A stretch of 48,902 bases of DNA from Deltaproteobacteria bacterium (GTDB taxonomy: Bacteria; Desulfobacterota; Binatia; UBA12015). The notes beneath the pieces are model-generated. The model was not told the DNA's origin and did not search any database. It worked only from the letters and a program-made list of their open reading frames with translations. Positions 1,779 through 48,902 of this stretch are shown in pieces (within the stretch, counting starts at the first letter, position 1; the number at the start of each line of letters is the position of its first letter). A program made the translations under genes and the position numbers. The stretch spans positions 1 to 48,902 of the forward strand of contig VGTG01000021.1 of the NCBI GenBank assembly GCA_016874795.1, given 5' to 3'.

Positions 1779-2463
1779 TCAGTAGCCTGGGATGGTCGTT
1801 GGATCGATGAGTCCGTGCCGCACCCAGCCCTTGCGGGCGAGCCAGGTGCGCGCGTGTGCGACCTCTGGACTCTCCTGAGCGGGAGCCCCAGCTCGTTTCC
1901 GGTTCCAGCCGGTGAACCAGCGTCCGGAGGAAGCCTCGTCGATCCGCACCGGAGGTGCCACGCCGAAGCGCTTGAACCAGTGCCTGCGTGCGTTCAGGAG
2001 CACGTACGCCAGAGCGGATCGCACTTCACGCGGCGTCCGGAGGAGCCGCAGATGGTAGCGCCCGTCGAGGACCGCTCCCGTGCGCGCGAAGGCGCGGTTC
2101 ACGACCCTTGCGAGACGCGCCGCAACCGCCTTCATCCCGCGCCCGAGCGCGTCCTTGGAGTCCGCTTCGACGATCAGGTGAGCGTGATCACGCTGGAGGG
2201 AGTAATGCAGGACGCGGAACTCGCCTCGCTCGCAGCACTTCCGCAGGCTCTTCTGGAACTCGCGTACGAGCCTGCGGCAACGAAGGCTCCGCAGGCCACC
2301 TCGCACGCGCAACGTCACGTGCGACGGACACTCGCCCGGCAGATCCGGCCGAGCACGGTGCTGCACGCGCGGCCGCGGCCCCCGGCGGCCGACCGGCTCC
2401 TTTCCGAGGTCCGCCGCGCCCCGAGCGCCGCCGCAAATCATCGAAGGAGAGCTGCCCCCGCAC
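1779..2463 (-). pseudogene. RAYT / IS200-like Y1 transposase, frameshifted
   Basis: REP-associated tyrosine transposase (Y1_Tnp, HUH nuclease). The N-terminus MRGQLSFDDLRRR and GGPRKGAGRPPG is read from a GTG at 2463. The rest, starting PRPRVQHRARPDLPG and CPSHVTLRV, lies in another frame down to the TGA at 1779-1781. Dropping one G from the 5-G run (CCCCC at 2379-2383 on the plus strand) joins them into RPPGPRPRVQHRARP, giving about 227 aa, the usual size. The HUH metal motif (RDHAHLIVEA) and a candidate catalytic Tyr (DGRYHLRLL) are present. Such genes are single-copy and often domesticated. The break is either a real inactivation or a homopolymer error. A promoter-like sequence lies directly upstream of the GTG. 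Confidence 0.75.
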
Positions 2464-2469
2464 GATTCG

Positions 2470-2498
2470 AGACTACCGCATGAGAAGAAAGTAGTCAA
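2470..2498 (-). promoter_or_regulatory. Candidate sigma-70 promoter of the RAYT gene
   Basis: On the minus strand TTGACT (2498-2493) and TAGTCT (2475-2470) are separated by 17 nt, inside an unusually A/T-rich patch (about 2480-2530). The predicted start of transcription is at about 2463, which is also the GTG codon, so the message would be leaderless. No Shine-Dalgarno is visible before that GTG. Confidence 0.45.
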
Positions 2499-17118: not shown

Positions 17119-17186
17119 CTCGACCTCCTCGGGCTCTTGACGGGGACGTTGGGACGGTACCAAACGCCCTTCGCGAGCGCTCCTAG

Positions 17187-17364
17187 CCTGCATTTCTCAC
17201 CAGATCACGTCGCGAGGCGGTCGAGAGTGCCGAAGATTCGCGAGCCTCGGACCGGAGGGCGACGCAGGCGTACTTGAACAGTACGTCGAGGAGCCCGGAG
17301 GGAGAAGCTCGCGAAGATTCGGTGCTATCGGCCGCCGCAGTAGGGATCTGGTGAGAAATGCAGG
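17187..17364. mobile_element. 178-bp fold-back element with terminal inverted repeats (complete copy)
   Basis: The ends are exact 20-bp inverted copies: cctgcatttctcaccagatc at 17187-17206 and its complement at 17345-17364. Each end is flanked by CTAG (17183-17186 and 17365-17368), either a 4-bp target duplication or a preferred target. The interior is itself an imperfect palindrome. CCGAAgaTTCGCGAGC at 17230-17245 matches the complement of 17311-17326 with two differences, and the centre is CGTACT-TGAAC-AGTACG (17269-17285). It contains no gene. This is the structure of a MITE-like non-autonomous element. The inverse-oriented copy at 48792-48902 is identical over its 111 visible bases. Confidence 0.85.
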
Positions 17365-18015
17365 CTAGACGAGAAGGGGCGTGGGGAAGGTGCGTTCGAT
17401 TAGATCGCGGTAGTGCGCGAGGTCGATCTTCGGCAGGAAGTAGGGCGAGACGAAGTCCGCGTCGAAGCGCCGGAAGGGCTTCAGGTACTTCTCCGCCCAT
17501 TCGCGCTCCTGCGCGTTCATCAAGCGCTCGACGTCGCTCATCGAGACGTTGTGATAGCGCGCCACCCACGCGACGTGATCGGGTACGTGCCCGCGAAGCC
17601 GCGAGTAGATGAACTCGCCGTGGCCGAACTGGAAGAGCGCGCTGTCGAGGCCCTCGCCTTCCACACCTCGCGAGATCCGTCGCGTGCCGCCGACGACGTG
17701 CTCCGGCGCCTCGCCGGCGGCGAGCAGCACCTTGCCCAGGTCGTGGACGATCGCGAGGACGTGCATGTCCGGATCGGTGACGCCGTTTCGCTCCATCGCC
17801 GCGAGGATCTGCTGCAGGTGGACGAGCTGGCTGCCGCAGAAGAGCCGCCGGTCCGTCGGGTCGATGCACAGCGAGAGCTTCTCGACCATGTCCCACACGC
17901 GGACGCGGCCGTAGACGGCGCTCTCGTAGCGCGCCTTCAGAGCGGAGACGGTCTCCGCGGTCTCGCGATTCCGTGCGGCGATGATCCGCTCCGCGTCGCG
18001 CTCGAACTCGCCCAT
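17365..18015 (-). CDS. Inositol-oxygenase (MIOX)-like diiron HD-domain protein
   Basis: A 216-aa HD-fold protein whose pattern matches myo-inositol oxygenase. All six diiron ligands align with those I recall for animal MIOX: His66 (QLVHLQQIL), His91-Asp92 (IVHDLGKVL, with Lys95), His132 (FQFGHGEFIY), His155 (ARYHNVSMS) and Asp185 (FRRFDADF). The ending KIDLAHYRDLIERTFP resembles the MIOX C-terminus. MIOX oxidises inositol to glucuronate with O2; the substrate here is not proven and could be another polyol or aminocyclitol. A plain HD phosphohydrolase is less likely because of the Asp185 region. The TAG stop is part of the CTAG flanking the fold-back element, so the last residue may have been set by that insertion. 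Confidence 0.72.
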   Translation of the reverse strand: MGEFERDAERIIAARNRETAETVSALKARYESAVYGRVRVWDMVEKLSLCIDPTDRRLFCGSQLVHLQQILAAMERNGVTDPDMHVLAIVHDLGKVLLAAGEAPEHVVGGTRRISRGVEGEGLDSALFQFGHGEFIYSRLRGHVPDHVAWVARYHNVSMSDVERLMNAQEREWAEKYLKPFRRFDADFVSPYFLPKIDLAHYRDLIERTFPTPLLV

Positions 18016-29988: not shown

Positions 29989-31761
29989 ATGTCTCGTTTC
30001 GACGTGATCATCCAGGGTGGGACCGTCGTCGACGGCACCGGAGCGCCGCGGCGGCGGGCCGACGTCGGCATCCGGAGCGGCAGAGTGGCGGCAATCCCCG
30101 CGAACGGGAAGCTCGACCGCGGCGATGCCGATCGCGTGATCGACGCGGAGGGAAAAATCGTCGCTCCCGGCTTCGTCGACATCCACACGCACTACGACGC
30201 GCAGGTCTTCTGGGACCCGTCGCTGTCGCCGTCCTCGGTCCACGGCGTCACGACCATCGTCGGCGGCAACTGCGGGTTCAGCGTGGCGCCGCTCGTTCCC
30301 GAGGCGGGGAACTATCTGATGCGCATGCTCGCGCGCGTCGAAGGCATGCCGCTCGAAGCGCTCGAGGCGGGCGTGCCGTGGAATTGGCGGAGCTTCTCCG
30401 AGTACCTCGGGCTGCTCGACGGGAAGCTCGCGCTGAACGCGGGCTTCCTCGTCGGCCACTCCGCGCTTCGCCGCGTCGTCATGGGGGAGGACGCGGTCGG
30501 GAAGGAAGCGAGCGAGGCGCAGATCGAGGCGATGAAGCGCCTCCTCGAGGAGTCGCTCGTGGGCGGCGGCCTCGGCTTCTCGTCCTCGGCCGCACCGACG
30601 CACAACGACGGCGACGGGCAGCCCGTGCCGTCGCGCTCCGCGAGCCGGCACGAGCTCGTCACGCTCGCGGGAGCGCTGCGCGATCACCCGGGCACGACGC
30701 TCGAGTTCCTGCCGACGGTCGGCGCGTTCGAGGACGCACACAAGGATCTGATGGCGTCGATGTCGCTCGCGGCGAATCGGCCGCTCAACTGGAACGTCCT
30801 CGCCGTGTCCTCCTACAACCGCGACCTGACGGAAGGACAGCTCTCCGCCTCCGACTACGCGCGCGAGCGCGGCGCGACCGTGATGGCGCTGACGCTGCCG
30901 CAGACGATGACGATGCGGCTGAACCTCGTGAGCGGCTTCATCTTCGACGCGCTTCCCGGCTGGGCCGAGGTGATCGCGCTGCCGCTCGCGGAGCGGAAGA
31001 AGCGCTTCGCCGACCCCGAGACGCGGCGGAAGCTCGACGAGGGCGCGAACTCCGAGGCGGCGGGCCTCTTCCGCTTCTTCGCGAACTGGCCCGGCCTCCG
31101 CATCGACGAGGCGTTCACCGCCGAGACGAAGGCCTGGCAGGGACGCACCGTCGGCGAGATCGCGCAGCAGCTCGGCAAGGCGCCGTTCGACGCGATGCTC
31201 GACATCGCGATCGCGGACGACCTCCGCACGTCGTTCATGCCGCCGATGCCGGGCGACGACGACGAGAGCTGGGCCCTTCGTGCGAAGGCGTGGCGCGATC
31301 CGCGCACGGTGATCGGCGCGACGGACGCGGGCGCGCACCTCGACATGATCGACACGTTCACCGGCACGACGGCGCTCCTCGGGCGCGGCGTCCGCGAGCG
31401 CGGCCTCCTCGGTCTCGAGGAAGCGGTGCAGGCGCTGACCGACGTGCCCGCGCGCCTCTACGGCATTCGCGGTCGCGGGCGGCTCGCGGAGGGCTGGGCC
31501 GCGGACGTCGTCGTGTTCGACGAAGCGCGCATCGGCCCCGGACCGATCCACACGCGCAACGACCTGCCCGCGGGAGCGGCGCGCCTCTACGCCGAGGCCG
31601 AGGGCATCGAGCACGTCCTCGTGAACGGCGTCGAGATCGTGCGCGGGAAGGAGCTCACGGGCGCGACGCCCGGCACGGTGATGCGCTCGGGCCGCGACAC
31701 GGACACGGTCACCGCAGGGGGTCCGGTTCGTTGGGCCGCATCTGCACCCAGGCTCGAATGA
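29989..31761 (+). CDS. N-acyl-D-amino-acid deacylase family amidohydrolase (second copy)
   Basis: A 590-aa amidohydrolase of the D-aminoacylase type. Markers are VAPGFVDIHTHYDAQVFWDP near 60-80, GVTTIVGGNCGFSVAP, GFLVGHSALRRVVMG and GATDAGAHLDM, with the terminal small domain YGIRGRGRLAEGWAADVVVFD. GGAGG precedes the ATG. It is a divergent paralogue of the gene at 14,749. The last 14 residues (GGPVRWAASAPRLE) are encoded by the left arm and loop of the 82-nt palindrome, and the TGA sits at the loop edge. The ancestral C-terminus must therefore have ended elsewhere, or the element has long been part of the gene. Confidence 0.9.
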   Translation: MSRFDVIIQGGTVVDGTGAPRRRADVGIRSGRVAAIPANGKLDRGDADRVIDAEGKIVAPGFVDIHTHYDAQVFWDPSLSPSSVHGVTTIVGGNCGFSVAPLVPEAGNYLMRMLARVEGMPLEALEAGVPWNWRSFSEYLGLLDGKLALNAGFLVGHSALRRVVMGEDAVGKEASEAQIEAMKRLLEESLVGGGLGFSSSAAPTHNDGDGQPVPSRSASRHELVTLAGALRDHPGTTLEFLPTVGAFEDAHKDLMASMSLAANRPLNWNVLAVSSYNRDLTEGQLSASDYARERGATVMALTLPQTMTMRLNLVSGFIFDALPGWAEVIALPLAERKKRFADPETRRKLDEGANSEAAGLFRFFANWPGLRIDEAFTAETKAWQGRTVGEIAQQLGKAPFDAMLDIAIADDLRTSFMPPMPGDDDESWALRAKAWRDPRTVIGATDAGAHLDMIDTFTGTTALLGRGVRERGLLGLEEAVQALTDVPARLYGIRGRGRLAEGWAADVVVFDEARIGPGPIHTRNDLPAGAARLYAEAEGIEHVLVNGVEIVRGKELTGATPGTVMRSGRDTDTVTAGGPVRWAASAPRLE

Positions 31762-31798
31762 GCCTGGGTGCAGATGCGGCCTAACGAACCGGACCCCC
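31717..31798. repeat. 82-nt near-perfect palindrome (copy 1)
   Basis: Two 39-nt arms (31717-31755 and 31760-31798) surround the loop GAAT and pair at 38 of 39 positions, the odd one being G opposite T. The outer part is GGGGGTCCGGTTCGTT, the inner part GCACCCAGGCTC. It sits between convergent genes: the plus-strand TGA begins at the loop edge (31759-31761), and the minus-strand patatin TGA (31799-31801) touches the right arm. As RNA it would be a very stable hairpin on either transcript, so it could act as a bidirectional 3'-end stabiliser or terminator. A related copy follows purM. Confidence 0.85.
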
Positions 31799-33100
31799 TC
31801 AAGCGGAGGCGGGGAGGACCTCCTCGTCGCGCGTTCGCAGGAAGAGCTCGATCTCGTCGATGCGCGCCGCCGCGTCGCGGTAGCCGATGTCGAGGAGCAC
31901 GCGCGTGTACGCGGAGTCGAAGAGCAGGTAGCTCGTCAGGTCCGCGCACTGCGCGTTCGGGACGCCGAGGCCGTCGAGCATGCCACGCACGGCCCACGGC
32001 ATTCGATGCTCGAGGCTCTTCGCGACGAGCGCCAGGTCCTCGGACGGATTCAGCACGAGCGGCTCGATGATCCGCATCGGCTCCGCGAGGGCACCGCCGG
32101 AGGGAACGTCCGAGGACACGCCCACCGGCCGCGCCTCGTAGTGCCGCAAAAGCTCGTTCATGCGGTGCAGGTGATCGACGTCCGTATCGAGGTGATCGAG
32201 GAAGAGCGCGTTCAGGAACACGCCGGCGATCTGCGAGACGGGCGGCGGCTGTACCTGCGCGCGCTCCGCGGTGTCGTCGGCGGAGGGGATCTCGTCCGCG
32301 AGAAGCTGCGCCGCCGCCTGCTGCGAACGGATCCCGATCCCGAGGACGCGGTCCGAGCCGAGGCGGATCGCCGGGCTGAACGGCGTCACCTGACGGAGCG
32401 CGCCGTCGCCGAAGTAGATCTCGCTTCCCGGCGCCGTCGGGATGCGCACCGGCGGGAACACGACGGGAATCGCCGCCGAGGCACAGATGTGATCCGCGGT
32501 GATCTCCGTCGCAACCGTGACGCGCCGGCCGCGCTGCCAGAGCGGATGCCCGGGCCGCCCCTGGATGAAGATGAACGAGCGACCCGAGTGATAGCTCGTC
32601 GCCGAGATCGCGAGCGCGTAGAGCCAGCCGTCGCGGATCGACGTCCCGATCGCGTCCGTCGGAAGCCGCCGCGCGATCATCTCGTGCAGCGGCGATGCGT
32701 CGAACAGGGCCTGCACGGTTCCCGCCCCGAGGAGCCAGCCGAGCGAGAAGTCGCGCAGCCACTGGAGCCCACCCTGCGCGAGCGAAAGCGCGTCCGTGCG
32801 GATGACCTCCTGGATCTGCAGGTCGGCCCAGAGGCGCGAGAGCCGGAGCGTCGAAGCGCCGAAGCCGCCGCCCCCGGTCGCCGCGAGGAACGCGCCGTTG
32901 ATCGCGCCCGCGGAAGCGCCGGTGATGACCTGGAAGGGCGGCGGTCGCTCGCGGAGGCGCGGGATCTCCGCGATGCGCTGGAGCACGCCCGCCTGGTAGG
33001 CGCCGCGCGCTCCGCCGGCCGTCAGGACGAGCCCGTTTCGACGCTCGGGCGTCCCCTTGCCGGGGCGGGGCCAGGGAGCGGCGCTGAGATGGAGTGCCAC
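31799..33100 (-). CDS. Patatin-like phospholipase
   Basis: A 433-aa lipid acyl hydrolase with a Ser-Asp dyad. The oxyanion-hole motif GGARGAYQAGVL is near residue 29, the nucleophile motif GASAG follows 30 residues later, and the Asp is in YFGDGALRQVTPF. The C-terminal third (about 300-433) has no assigned domain. No signal peptide is present, so it may be cytoplasmic or exported by another path. The start is given as GTG at 33100, with AGGA about 9 nt upstream; a TTG at 33118 is the alternative. The stop lies directly against the 82-nt palindrome. It faces the D-aminoacylase gene and follows purM on the same strand after 313 bp. Confidence 0.88.
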   Translation of the reverse strand: MALHLSAAPWPRPGKGTPERRNGLVLTAGGARGAYQAGVLQRIAEIPRLRERPPPFQVITGASAGAINGAFLAATGGGGFGASTLRLSRLWADLQIQEVIRTDALSLAQGGLQWLRDFSLGWLLGAGTVQALFDASPLHEMIARRLPTDAIGTSIRDGWLYALAISATSYHSGRSFIFIQGRPGHPLWQRGRRVTVATEITADHICASAAIPVVFPPVRIPTAPGSEIYFGDGALRQVTPFSPAIRLGSDRVLGIGIRSQQAAAQLLADEIPSADDTAERAQVQPPPVSQIAGVFLNALFLDHLDTDVDHLHRMNELLRHYEARPVGVSSDVPSGGALAEPMRIIEPLVLNPSEDLALVAKSLEHRMPWAVRGMLDGLGVPNAQCADLTSYLLFDSAYTRVLLDIGYRDAAARIDEIELFLRTRDEEVLPASA

Positions 33101-33331
33101 CGACTTTTTCCTGAGCAATCCGGAGGCCAGAGCGCAAGCAGACGTCGAGGCGCCGACGCGGAGACGCAGAGCGCCGCGGGCCCGAAGGCCTGCGGTTGGC
33201 TCGAAAACGAGCCGCGTTTGGTCAAGCCTCGAGCAGCCGCCGAGTCGCAGCGCCGGCGAATCCCTGCTTCCTCCCGCCCCCGAGGTGGGTCTCCGCAGCT
33301 ACGACACGGCAGAGTTTGCCCGGCCGTTCGC
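33101..33331. other. Intergenic upstream of the patatin gene
   Basis: No gene is seen. It contains a perfect hairpin GGCTCG-AAAA-CGAGCC at 33198-33213, and on the minus strand the patatin ribosome site. The rest is plain high-GC sequence with no convincing promoter. Together with the adjacent palindrome it makes a 313-bp gap between patatin and purM. Confidence 0.5.
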
Positions 33332-33413
33332 GGTCCGGGTGCGACCTCAGGCGCATCTGAACCCAGGCTCAGGCGAGCCCGGGTGCGAATGCGCCGTAAC
33401 GAACCGGACCCCC
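33332..33413. repeat. 82-nt palindromic element (copy 2)
   Basis: The right half (33375-33413) matches copy 1 at about 34 of 39 positions, including the whole outer block TAACGAACCGGACCCCC. The inner arms (33350-33370 and 33375-33395, loop AGGC) pair at 17 of 21. The outer left arm has diverged, keeping GGTCCGG. As in copy 1, the GGGGGTCCGG end begins immediately after a minus-strand stop codon, here the TAA of purM (33414-33416). Same size, same placement relative to a gene end, different sequence drift: a repeat family rather than chance. Confidence 0.75.
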
Positions 33414-34511
33414 TTAGACGAAGGTCTTCCCGGAGCCGACGAGGCCGACTTCCGGAAGCACCATCGTGCGCGCCGCGTCCTCGACCGCGCGGCCGATCGG
33501 CTGCACCTCGCAACCTTCGGCACCGATGATCCGCAGCGCCTCGTCCACCGAGCCCTCCGGCACGACGACGCAGAAGCCGATGCCCATGTTGAACGTCTGG
33601 TACATCTCCGCCGCGCCGAGACCCGCACGCACGCCGATCAGCGAGAAGACGGGCGGGGGCGAAGGCAGCGCGTCGATCACGAAGCCGATGCCCGGACGAT
33701 CGACGCGCAGGAGGTTCAGGAGCCCGTCGCCCGTGATGTGCGCGAGCGCGCGCACCGGCACGCCCGCGTCGAGGAGCGCCATCACCTCGCGCACGTAGAT
33801 GCGCGTCGGACGGAGCAGCTCCTCGCCGACGCTCGCGCCGCCGAGCTCCGCGGGCCGGTCGGAGTACGCCTCCGCGCCGTGGCCCTTCGCGAGGACCTTC
33901 CGCGCGAGCGTCAAGCCGTTCGAGTGGATGCCCGAAGCGGCGAGACCGAGCACGACGTCGCCTGGCGCGATGTCGCGTCCGACGATCAAGCGGTCGAGCG
34001 ACACGATGCCGACCGCGGTCGCGACGACGTCGAAGCTCTCGCGCTCGTCGGGCGGGTGCGGGCGGAGGAGCTCGCGAACCTGCGCGATCTCGCCGCCGGG
34101 AATGCTGATGCGCGCTTGACGAGCGCCTTCGACGAGCCCCGCCGCGAACTGCTCGAGCAGGTACGGATCCGTTCCCGGAACGGCGATGTAGTCGACGAGC
34201 GCGATCGGCTCCGCGCCGACGCAGAGTACGTCGTTCGCGTTCATCGCGATCAGGTCGATCCCGACGGTGTCGTAGCGGCGGAGCGCGTGCGCGACGAGGA
34301 GCTTCGTCCCGACGCCGTCGGTGCCGATCGCGAGCCCGATCCCGCCGCCGACGTCGAGAACGTTCGCGAAGAAGCCGTTCGGGAGAACCGGCCGTCCGCG
34401 GCGCGGAAACGACATCGTCTCGCCGAGCCGCGAAAGAAGCTTGCCGAGGCCTCCCTCGAGCCCGACGACGTCGACTCCCGCCGCCGCATAGCTCTCGACG
34501 TCCTTGCTCAC
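33414..34511 (-). CDS. purM: Phosphoribosylformylglycinamidine cyclo-ligase (AIR synthetase)
   Basis: A 365-aa PurM, the fifth step of purine synthesis, closing the imidazole ring of AIR with ATP. Family marks are YAAAGVDVVGLEGGLGKL, LAIGTDGVGTKLLVAHAL, GIDLIAMNANDVLCVGAEPIALVDYIA, IPGGEIAQ, GLAASGIHSNGLTLAR, HITGDGLLNLLRV and the end MYQTFNMGIGFCVVVP. The start is GTG at 34511, overlapping the TGA of the CoA-transferase gene (GTGA). The frame stays open far upstream, but that part is shadow. The usual partner purN is not next to it; the coupling to a CoA-transferase is unusual. An 82-nt palindrome follows its TAA. Confidence 0.95.
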   Translation of the reverse strand: MSKDVESYAAAGVDVVGLEGGLGKLLSRLGETMSFPRRGRPVLPNGFFANVLDVGGGIGLAIGTDGVGTKLLVAHALRRYDTVGIDLIAMNANDVLCVGAEPIALVDYIAVPGTDPYLLEQFAAGLVEGARQARISIPGGEIAQVRELLRPHPPDERESFDVVATAVGIVSLDRLIVGRDIAPGDVVLGLAASGIHSNGLTLARKVLAKGHGAEAYSDRPAELGGASVGEELLRPTRIYVREVMALLDAGVPVRALAHITGDGLLNLLRVDRPGIGFVIDALPSPPPVFSLIGVRAGLGAAEMYQTFNMGIGFCVVVPEGSVDEALRIIGAEGCEVQPIGRAVEDAARTMVLPEVGLVGSGKTFV

Positions 34512-48660: not shown

Positions 48661-48791
48661 GGGATCGCGAAGCGGAAGACCGTTCCGAAGTAGCGTTTCG
48701 CCTCGGGATCGAACGCGCCGCCCGCCTCCGGCGCGATGCTGGTGAACGGCTCGTCCGAGCTCATCTTCGACTTCTCGACCACGCTCGCTAG
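48654..48791 (-). CDS. 3' end of an unidentified gene cut by the fold-back element (partial)
   Basis: On the minus strand the frame reads LASVVEKSKMSSDEPFTSIAPEAGG, then AFDPEAKRYFGTVFRFAIPR and a TGA. The ending looks like a genuine C-terminus, but the family is not recognised. Immediately upstream lies the CTAG and then the 178-bp repeat, which runs off the window. Either the repeat interrupts the gene, or it begins with an ATG at about 48755 after the repeat (36 residues, unlikely). Confidence 0.45.
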   Translation of the reverse strand, partial: LASVVEKSKMSSDEPFTSIAPEAGGAFDPEAKRYFGTVFRFAIPR

Positions 48792-48902
48792 CCTGCATTT
48801 CTCACCAGATCCCTACTGCGGCGGCCGATAGCACCGAATCTTCGCGAGCTTCTCCCTCCGGGCTCCTCGACGTACTGTTCAAGTACGCCTGCGTCGCCCT
48901 CC
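48792..48902. mobile_element. 178-bp fold-back element, second copy (truncated by the window end)
   Basis: It starts with the same terminal repeat, preceded by CTAG (48788-48791). Its 111 visible bases are, read side by side, identical to the reverse complement of 17254-17364, so it lies in the opposite orientation to the copy at 17187. The match includes the TIR, the subterminal block near CCGAATCTTCGCGAGC and the central CGTACT hairpin. The near or full identity over 31 kb of separation implies recent spread or gene conversion. The other half lies outside the window. Confidence 0.85.

Follow-up and report, generated by a model that had tools for sequence, protein, structure and literature searches.

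A dispersed hairpin element abutting stop codons in a Binatia genome, probably mobilized by a single RAYT/TIRYT-type transposase

The window analyzed here, a stretch of 48,902 nucleotides from a Deltaproteobacteria bacterium (Desulfobacterota; Binatia; UBA12015), carries two copies of a palindromic element amid genes for an amidohydrolase, a patatin-like phospholipase and PurM (Table 1). Copy 1 folds as RNA into a hairpin in which 38 pairs and a single mismatch enclose a 4-nt loop (-87.8 kcal/mol), a fold that none of 200 shuffled sequences equaled (z -17.6), and it is the longest inverted repeat detected in the window at spacings of up to 400 nt. Folding and shuffling thus bear out the preliminary description of an 82-nt palindrome with 38 of 39 positions paired. 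The TGA stop of the patatin gene (31801-31799, minus strand) is followed at once by GGGGGTCCGG of copy 1, and GGGGGTCCGG also occurs directly 3' of the minus-strand TAA of purM, in copy 2. Hence, the earlier observation that both copies begin right after a minus-strand stop holds, as do both gene names, the patatin assignment being above the Pfam cut-off and weak in NCBIfam. Of the claim that the two copies are equally long, with one diverged, the second part stands, in that copy 2 has one decayed arm and still folds better than all 200 of its shuffles (z -4.9), but its length is about 85 nt and not exactly the same. Because the plus-strand amidohydrolase gene enters copy 1 and stops inside it, this copy lies between convergent genes. 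The ortholog of the amidohydrolase in a same-genus genome ends about five codons past the insertion point, and PurM is two residues shorter than its same-genus ortholog.

Table 1. Palindromic elements and adjoining genes, in coordinates of the window
Feature	Coordinates	Strand	Description and basis
Palindromic element copy 1	31717..31798	.	two 39-nt inverted arms and a 4-nt loop; arm layout GGGGGTCCGGTTCGTT, 4 variable nt, inner conserved part; sequence, folding, 27-copy alignment, pair counts
Palindromic element copy 2	33329..33413	.	left arm decayed; between co-directional purM and patatin genes; covariance model bounds
Patatin-like phospholipase gene	31799..33118	-	PF01734, 72.5 bits; start uncertain, 33100 or 33118
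Amidohydrolase gene	29989..31761	+	PF07969; reads 45 nt into copy 1, stop in loop
purM	33414..34511	-	NCBIfam TIGR00878 above cut-off; TAA abuts copy 2

The palindrome belongs to a family dispersed through its own genome, a 6.27-Mb draft. BLAST with the 82-mer, for which 40 of 75 candidates were scored, gave at least 82 matches over both strands. A covariance model built from 27 aligned copies, for which 150 of 4132 first-look candidates were scored, gave at least 116 matches at E<=0.01, corresponding to at least 58 places, each detected on both strands. A pattern search for the arm, allowing up to 3 mismatches, returned 60 forward and 56 reverse matches. The suggestion that the repeat spreads is supported by these 116 arm matches against 0 for the reversed control pattern in the same genome, and by a full-length copy with its own transposase (see below). 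From these searches we compiled a table of 51 paired copies and 13 single-arm entries, in which L061 was dropped as a duplicate, being the overlapping contig end of L062, and which misses at least two paired copies found by BLAST (C101:4516 and C213:828). A chance inverted repeat or an assembly artifact can for practical purposes be discounted: the assembly is a draft of 360 contigs with one element (L061/L062) at contig ends, but chance is ruled out by the shuffling test and the existence of a copy family, and the elements occupy at least 58 places in differing contexts, with no control matches. The two contig ends in question, C202:25-108 (L062) and C310:8-91 (L061), apparently share one element and seem to overlap there; such an overlap would join two convergent genes, each flush with the element.

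Among the genomes searched, the family has a narrow range. The palindrome was found in none of 97 other genomes, three of the same genus, at E<=1e-6 under stricter filters, was not matched in a plasmid search, and GGGGTCCGGTTCG was not found in the papers searched. An Rfam search with the window locus L001 gave no match at gathering score, the best reaching 48.3 bits against a cut-off of 61, and the five weak matches were all to microRNA-type models.

The outer and inner parts of the arms differ in variability. Across the 51 paired copies, outer positions 2-14 show a single deviation in 1326 letters, a count from which copies with badly decayed outer arms have possibly escaped, and the inner 18 positions are clearly more variable. 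Although free to vary in sequence, the 4-nt block (positions 17-20) is the same in both arms in 17 of the 51 copies (4.3 expected from shuffling, with a maximum of 11 in 2000). Double-sided changes fall in 29 cells of the 27-copy alignment against 12.0 after shuffling. This covariation indicates that the arms have been kept matching, either by selection on the hairpin or through one arm being copied from the other.

One copy of the palindrome (L038:1621-1886) is split by a nested insertion of an unrelated 186-bp repeat. This second dispersed repeat has perfect 24-nt inverted ends, CTAGCCTGCATTTCTCACCAGATC, and occurs at 17183-17368 and 48788-48902 of the window and at L015, L023, L046, L058 and L038. 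Its CTAG end twice supplies the TAG stop of a called gene (the window gene ending at 17365 and one at L046), and since the window ends inside a copy, the contig break was probably caused by this repeat. The right flanks of L017 and L023 have extra GGACCCCC / GACAGGGGGACA motifs by the element, which are perhaps remnants of related repeats.

The Y1_Tnp profile (PF01797) has 13 matches in the source genome, and the best of these (C66:15174-15518) is flanked by element arms at C66:15023-15052 (+) and C66:15843-15872 (-). This full-length unit (G000:C66) spans 854 bp, with arms of 41 nt (35/41 paired) and an intact ORF of 239 codons that ends within the right arm. Its product scores 55 bits against Pfam Y1_Tnp (cut-off 23) and 71 bits against the NCBIfam model for REP-associated tyrosine transposases, below the cut-off of 80. 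The H60-x-H62 (MPNHFH) and Y122 (YVERN) residues are invariant in nine aligned sequences, namely this protein and eight relatives, and its C-terminal 89 residues match no Pfam domain, HTH included, at E<=5. At E<=1e-10 the transposase has a single match in the source genome; among 14 genomes of the family, a close copy is present in the source genome only, and two others have one relative each (33-35% identical, E<=1e-10). The 12 other Y1_Tnp genes are not supported as movers of the element, since nine of their loci (L028-L036) have neither an element arm nor a spanning inverted repeat over 13 nt. The window itself contains another Y1_Tnp/RAYT-like gene at 1779-2498 (-), with 29 bits in Pfam and 38 bits in NCBIfam, the latter below cut-off.

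The flanks of the elements point to a preferred insertion context. The base directly outside the element is A at 99 of 114 ends and the next base out is A at 57 of 114, with one end counted twice because the entry L043:1652 duplicates L024; the joined flanks read A/T, the slash marking the place of the element, in 38 of 51 paired copies. No target duplication was seen by eye in the listed flanks. At one locus, L006, the orthologous genes in the same-genus genome G001 converge with 3 nt between their stops and lack an element, and thus constitute an element-free syntenic site. L006 is the single element-bearing pair found both convergent and adjacent in G001; a special loss of genes at element sites was considered and rejected, as control convergent pairs turn over too, with 3 of 4 control pairs against 3 of 5 element pairs lying near each other but not adjacent in G001 (very small numbers).

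Taken together, the common arms, the one cognate transposase, the confinement of the family to a single genome among relatives, the symmetrical preference for A/T flanks, the covarying arms and the element-free site point to a mobile element. Judged from these sequence relationships, the 82-mer is in all likelihood a non-autonomous miniature element, a head-to-head dimer of the terminal repeats of a RAYT/TIRYT-type transposon, and is very probably mobilized in trans by the single HUH/Y1 transposase of the 854-bp copy. Two observations run counter to this account: only one copy carries the transposase, and the score of its product against the NCBIfam equivalog is below cut-off. In the mechanism that we envisage, two copies of the terminal repeat would have been joined head to head with only the loop between them to give the 82-mer, on which the transposase from G000:C66 would act. 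The element would move as single-stranded DNA folded into a hairpin, with no duplication of the target, as in other RAYT/IS200-like systems. Insertions would then be retained for the most part at gene 3' ends. Where a stop codon adjoins, the A-ended terminus (A/GGGG or TA/G, the slash marking the element edge) would often serve as the stop or re-form it.

Among systems that might be compared, the miniature derivatives of IS200/IS605 combine a HUH/Y1 enzyme with short subterminal imperfect hairpins. The present family resembles them in its HUH/Y1 enzyme and in that target duplication was not seen, and differs in its long inverted arms and in the 854-bp copy being without a second gene. An integron attC site was rejected, as GTTAGGC...GCCTAAC occurs in some arm variants only and in the order opposite to that of attC.

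On sequence grounds, the family is best read as TIRYT/TIRtron, with a REPIN-like organization, a kind already described (cf. PMC3733652, PMC6006769, PMC3116915, PMC2817692). As in the TIRtrons/TIRYTs covered in the available text of Di Nocera et al. (2013, PMC3733652), a RAYT-like HUH/Y1 gene lies between long terminal inverted repeats, which are also scattered as dimers and contain a GGGG-type motif. The GGGGWSAS motif is present in some but not all of the TIRYT/TIRtron cases described there; the repeat here, GGGGTCCG, agrees with it at 7 of 8 positions. According to PMC6006769, TIRtron/TIRYT families fall largely in subclass 2.1 of TnpA-Y1; the C-terminal HTH domain of that subclass is not detected by Pfam in the present protein, which may set it apart. 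With REPINs, as presented by Bertels and Rainey (2011, PMC3116915), the element shares a single long hairpin built from two conserved units in inverted orientation, the RAYT link, and an invariant outer segment with compensatory changes in the spacer. In contrast to them, its arms are not GI-GIII REP sequences and lack a GTAG-type tag, ending in A(A)GGGGG; it occupies at least 58 places rather than hundreds; and its best copies pair almost perfectly over their full length. The preliminary description was right that it is larger than classical REP units, being a REPIN-like dimer of terminal inverted repeats. Membership in a classical GTAG or CGTC REP family is very improbable: the element is extragenic, palindromic, transposase-linked and near gene 3' ends, and its placement between convergent genes close to ORF ends recalls GTAG/CGTC REPs and BIMEs as far as these are treated in the available text of PMC3733652, but this assignment is contradicted by the A(A)GGGGG ends, the absence of a constant GTAG/CGTC tag and arms of about 39 nt, and TAA and TGA abut it as well as TAG.

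A scan of named genomes recovered 26 loci with relatives of the transposase, which reach at most 54-55% identity and come from records named Planctomycetota, Proteobacteria, Nitrospira, Acidobacteria and others. Of 16 such loci inspected, seven (L097, L099, L101, L103, L104, L107 and L109) have the gene spanned by an inverted repeat of 18-25 nt, some of the remaining nine sequences ending close to the gene. Several of these repeats have a GGGGACAG or GGGGTC core, and those of L099, L104 and L107 carry GGGGACAG, a full match to GGGGWSAS. The seven genomes behind these loci were searched with one of two arm sequences at up to 3 mismatches, which gave 79+75 matches for L104, 10+7 for L103, 5+5 for L107 (with 1 control match), 2+1 for L101 and 0+2 for L099; the genomes behind L097 and L109 gave 0 matches to the L103 arm, used in place of their own. 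Three of the seven genomes thus have at least 10 arm matches, and the loci read from them contain 16, 5 and 5 paired units; most of the paired arms read in relative genomes form hairpins of about 51-92 nt. In the L104 genome (a record named Desulfotomaculum sp.), three dimers (L246, L253 and L261) lie exactly 10 nt after an ORF stop, a small sample.

With gene calls from a home-made codon-usage caller, 71 gene 3' ends face an element, and in 28 of these the stop is at the element edge: it ends exactly at the element in 19 and borrows the first base of the element in nine (TAG eight times, TAA once). In a further eight the frame enters the element and stops 18 nt inside, in 10 it enters further or stops at least 20 nt inside, and the other 25 have their stop 1 to 832 nt short of the element, 12 of them within 50 nt. 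A gap of 0 accounts for 19 of the 31 gaps in the range from 0 to 50 nt, where 0.8 would be expected under uniformity, 2.9 with flank weights from all elements and 1.3 with weights from non-flush elements, these site weights being taken from the tested elements themselves. Placement right at stop codons, as first noticed for the two window copies, is thus far above chance in the genome-wide covariance and pattern search that the preliminary description proposed, and target preference alone is rejected as its cause, given 19 gaps of 0 against 2.9 after A/T weighting. Of the 19 stops with a gap of 0, 10 are TAA, and stops away from elements are TGA in 132 cases, TAG in 47 and TAA in eight.

Whether such stops are native was judged against orthologs in a same-genus genome, of which stretches totaling 2.35 Mb out of about 6.5 Mb were compared. 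For the flush genes, the C-terminal length is exact in five, shorter in seven and longer in none (n=12), against 22 exact, 15 shorter and 18 longer among control genes (n=55). As none of the 12 flush genes is longer than its ortholog, some flush stops may be new rather than native. The flush gene at L019 has the same terminal F as two G001 relatives of about 43% identity. These comparisons suggest a mixture of native flush stops and flush stops that slightly truncate the gene.

We see an even chance that the placement arises from survival of insertions at gene 3' ends together with the A-ended terminus serving as, or re-forming, the stop, an account that explains the sharp peak at gaps of 0 and -1 only in part. 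With 19 of 31 gaps at 0 against 2.9 expected, the abutment is sharper than mobility and purifying selection predict; its occurrence where room was available and the lack of flush ORFs at dimers of other genomes (both given below) likewise count against this account. One alternative is integration that prefers gene ends, by insertion at stops or by replacement of a hairpin or spacer formerly between stops. In its favor, of the 58 ends that are entered by a gene or lie no more than 60 nt from a gene 3' end, 31 carry a stop triplet at the junction, in frame in 28, compared with six of the 57 remaining ends (Fisher 8.5e-7), and abutment occurs even where there is intergenic room (e.g., gaps of 0/145 at L048 and 0/832 at L054) and on both sides in some convergent pairs (see below). 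Even so, we regard it as quite unlikely: a DNA transposase is unable to read codon frame, the 30 elements that have no flush stop show no excess of T at -3 (14%), and of the 22 ORFs facing analogous dimers in three other genomes none is flush, compared with 17 of 82 here (Fisher 0.02 under one crude rule, in a small sample of which the L104 genome supplies 15 of the 22).

The gene pairs around the elements are likewise skewed. With L001, in the window, excluded from the background counts, 23 of 55 element-bearing pairs are convergent against 14% of background pairs and sites (threefold, P about 5e-7), and eight of 55 are divergent against 35% of weighted sites (P about 8e-4). Even with these eight divergent pairs, and with 2 of 51 paired copies inside called ORFs (L052 and L055), what we found is neither a lack of further copies nor the random positions inside genes and promoters that the preliminary description had named as contrary evidence. 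The convergent enrichment fits a role at 3' ends and also a tolerance of mobile elements there. Of the 22 convergent pairs with an element, which include L062, entered manually from two overlapping contig ends, seven have both stops within -1 to 2 nt of the element, against 12 of 357 convergent gaps within 2 nt in G001. In the latter genome, 54 of 357 convergent pairs overlap, 23 by exactly 4 nt; an insertion in a 4-nt overlap would leave both stops at the element.

These numbers bear on a domesticated bidirectional 3'-end element, in which the stable hairpin terminates, insulates or protects abutting convergent transcripts. The convergent excess, the pairs with both stops at the element and the retention of pairing where the sequence varies all speak for such a role, which we nevertheless hold to be unlikely, though less so than gene-end integration. 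Only 3 of 102 element ends are followed by at least five T within 8 nt, and 31400-33700 yielded no terminator-like site; as a GC-rich hairpin without a U-tract, the element is not a canonical intrinsic terminator. Of the earlier proposal that the repeat spreads as, or is selected as, a 3'-end structure, the spread is supported, and selection as a terminator, stabilizer or attenuator is a conjecture; a 3'-end role might work by other means, such as Rho, RNase protection or translation. Some of the element-bearing pairs are divergent, the near-invariant outer arm and single-genome range suit recent spread more than long selection, and the overlapping convergent pairs of G001 indicate that abutting genes are tolerated without an element.

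We favor mobility plus selection over a dedicated terminator or a targeting of stops, and give the account as a whole, a mobile hairpin of one transposase placed by its mobility and by selection, a probability of roughly 0.8. Placement at gene ends has precedents: in PMC3733652, the REPs between convergent genes of two described genomes are mostly no more than 20 bp from either ORF end, with GTAG termini frequently supplying TAG stops, and the available text of PMC12306157 reports, from an earlier study, ribosome stalling for REPs within 15 nt of a stop. Since gene-end placement of REP-type repeats is already known, it is the sharpness of the placement here that stands out; such strong abutment of stop codons is not described for the TIR families in the available text of PMC3733652.

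There is a slim chance that the establishment of the family is itself tied to stop codons, through recruitment as bidirectional 3' ends for convergent genes or through integration steered to gene ends. If so, a mobile hairpin would have become a genome-wide punctuation mark for gene ends in one species. The analysis links a single dispersed family of palindromes with a single transposase gene, in a new genome, and the flush gene 3' ends provide an unusually sharp data set for the old question of whether the clustering of REP-type repeats at gene ends comes from tolerance, usefulness or landing preference.
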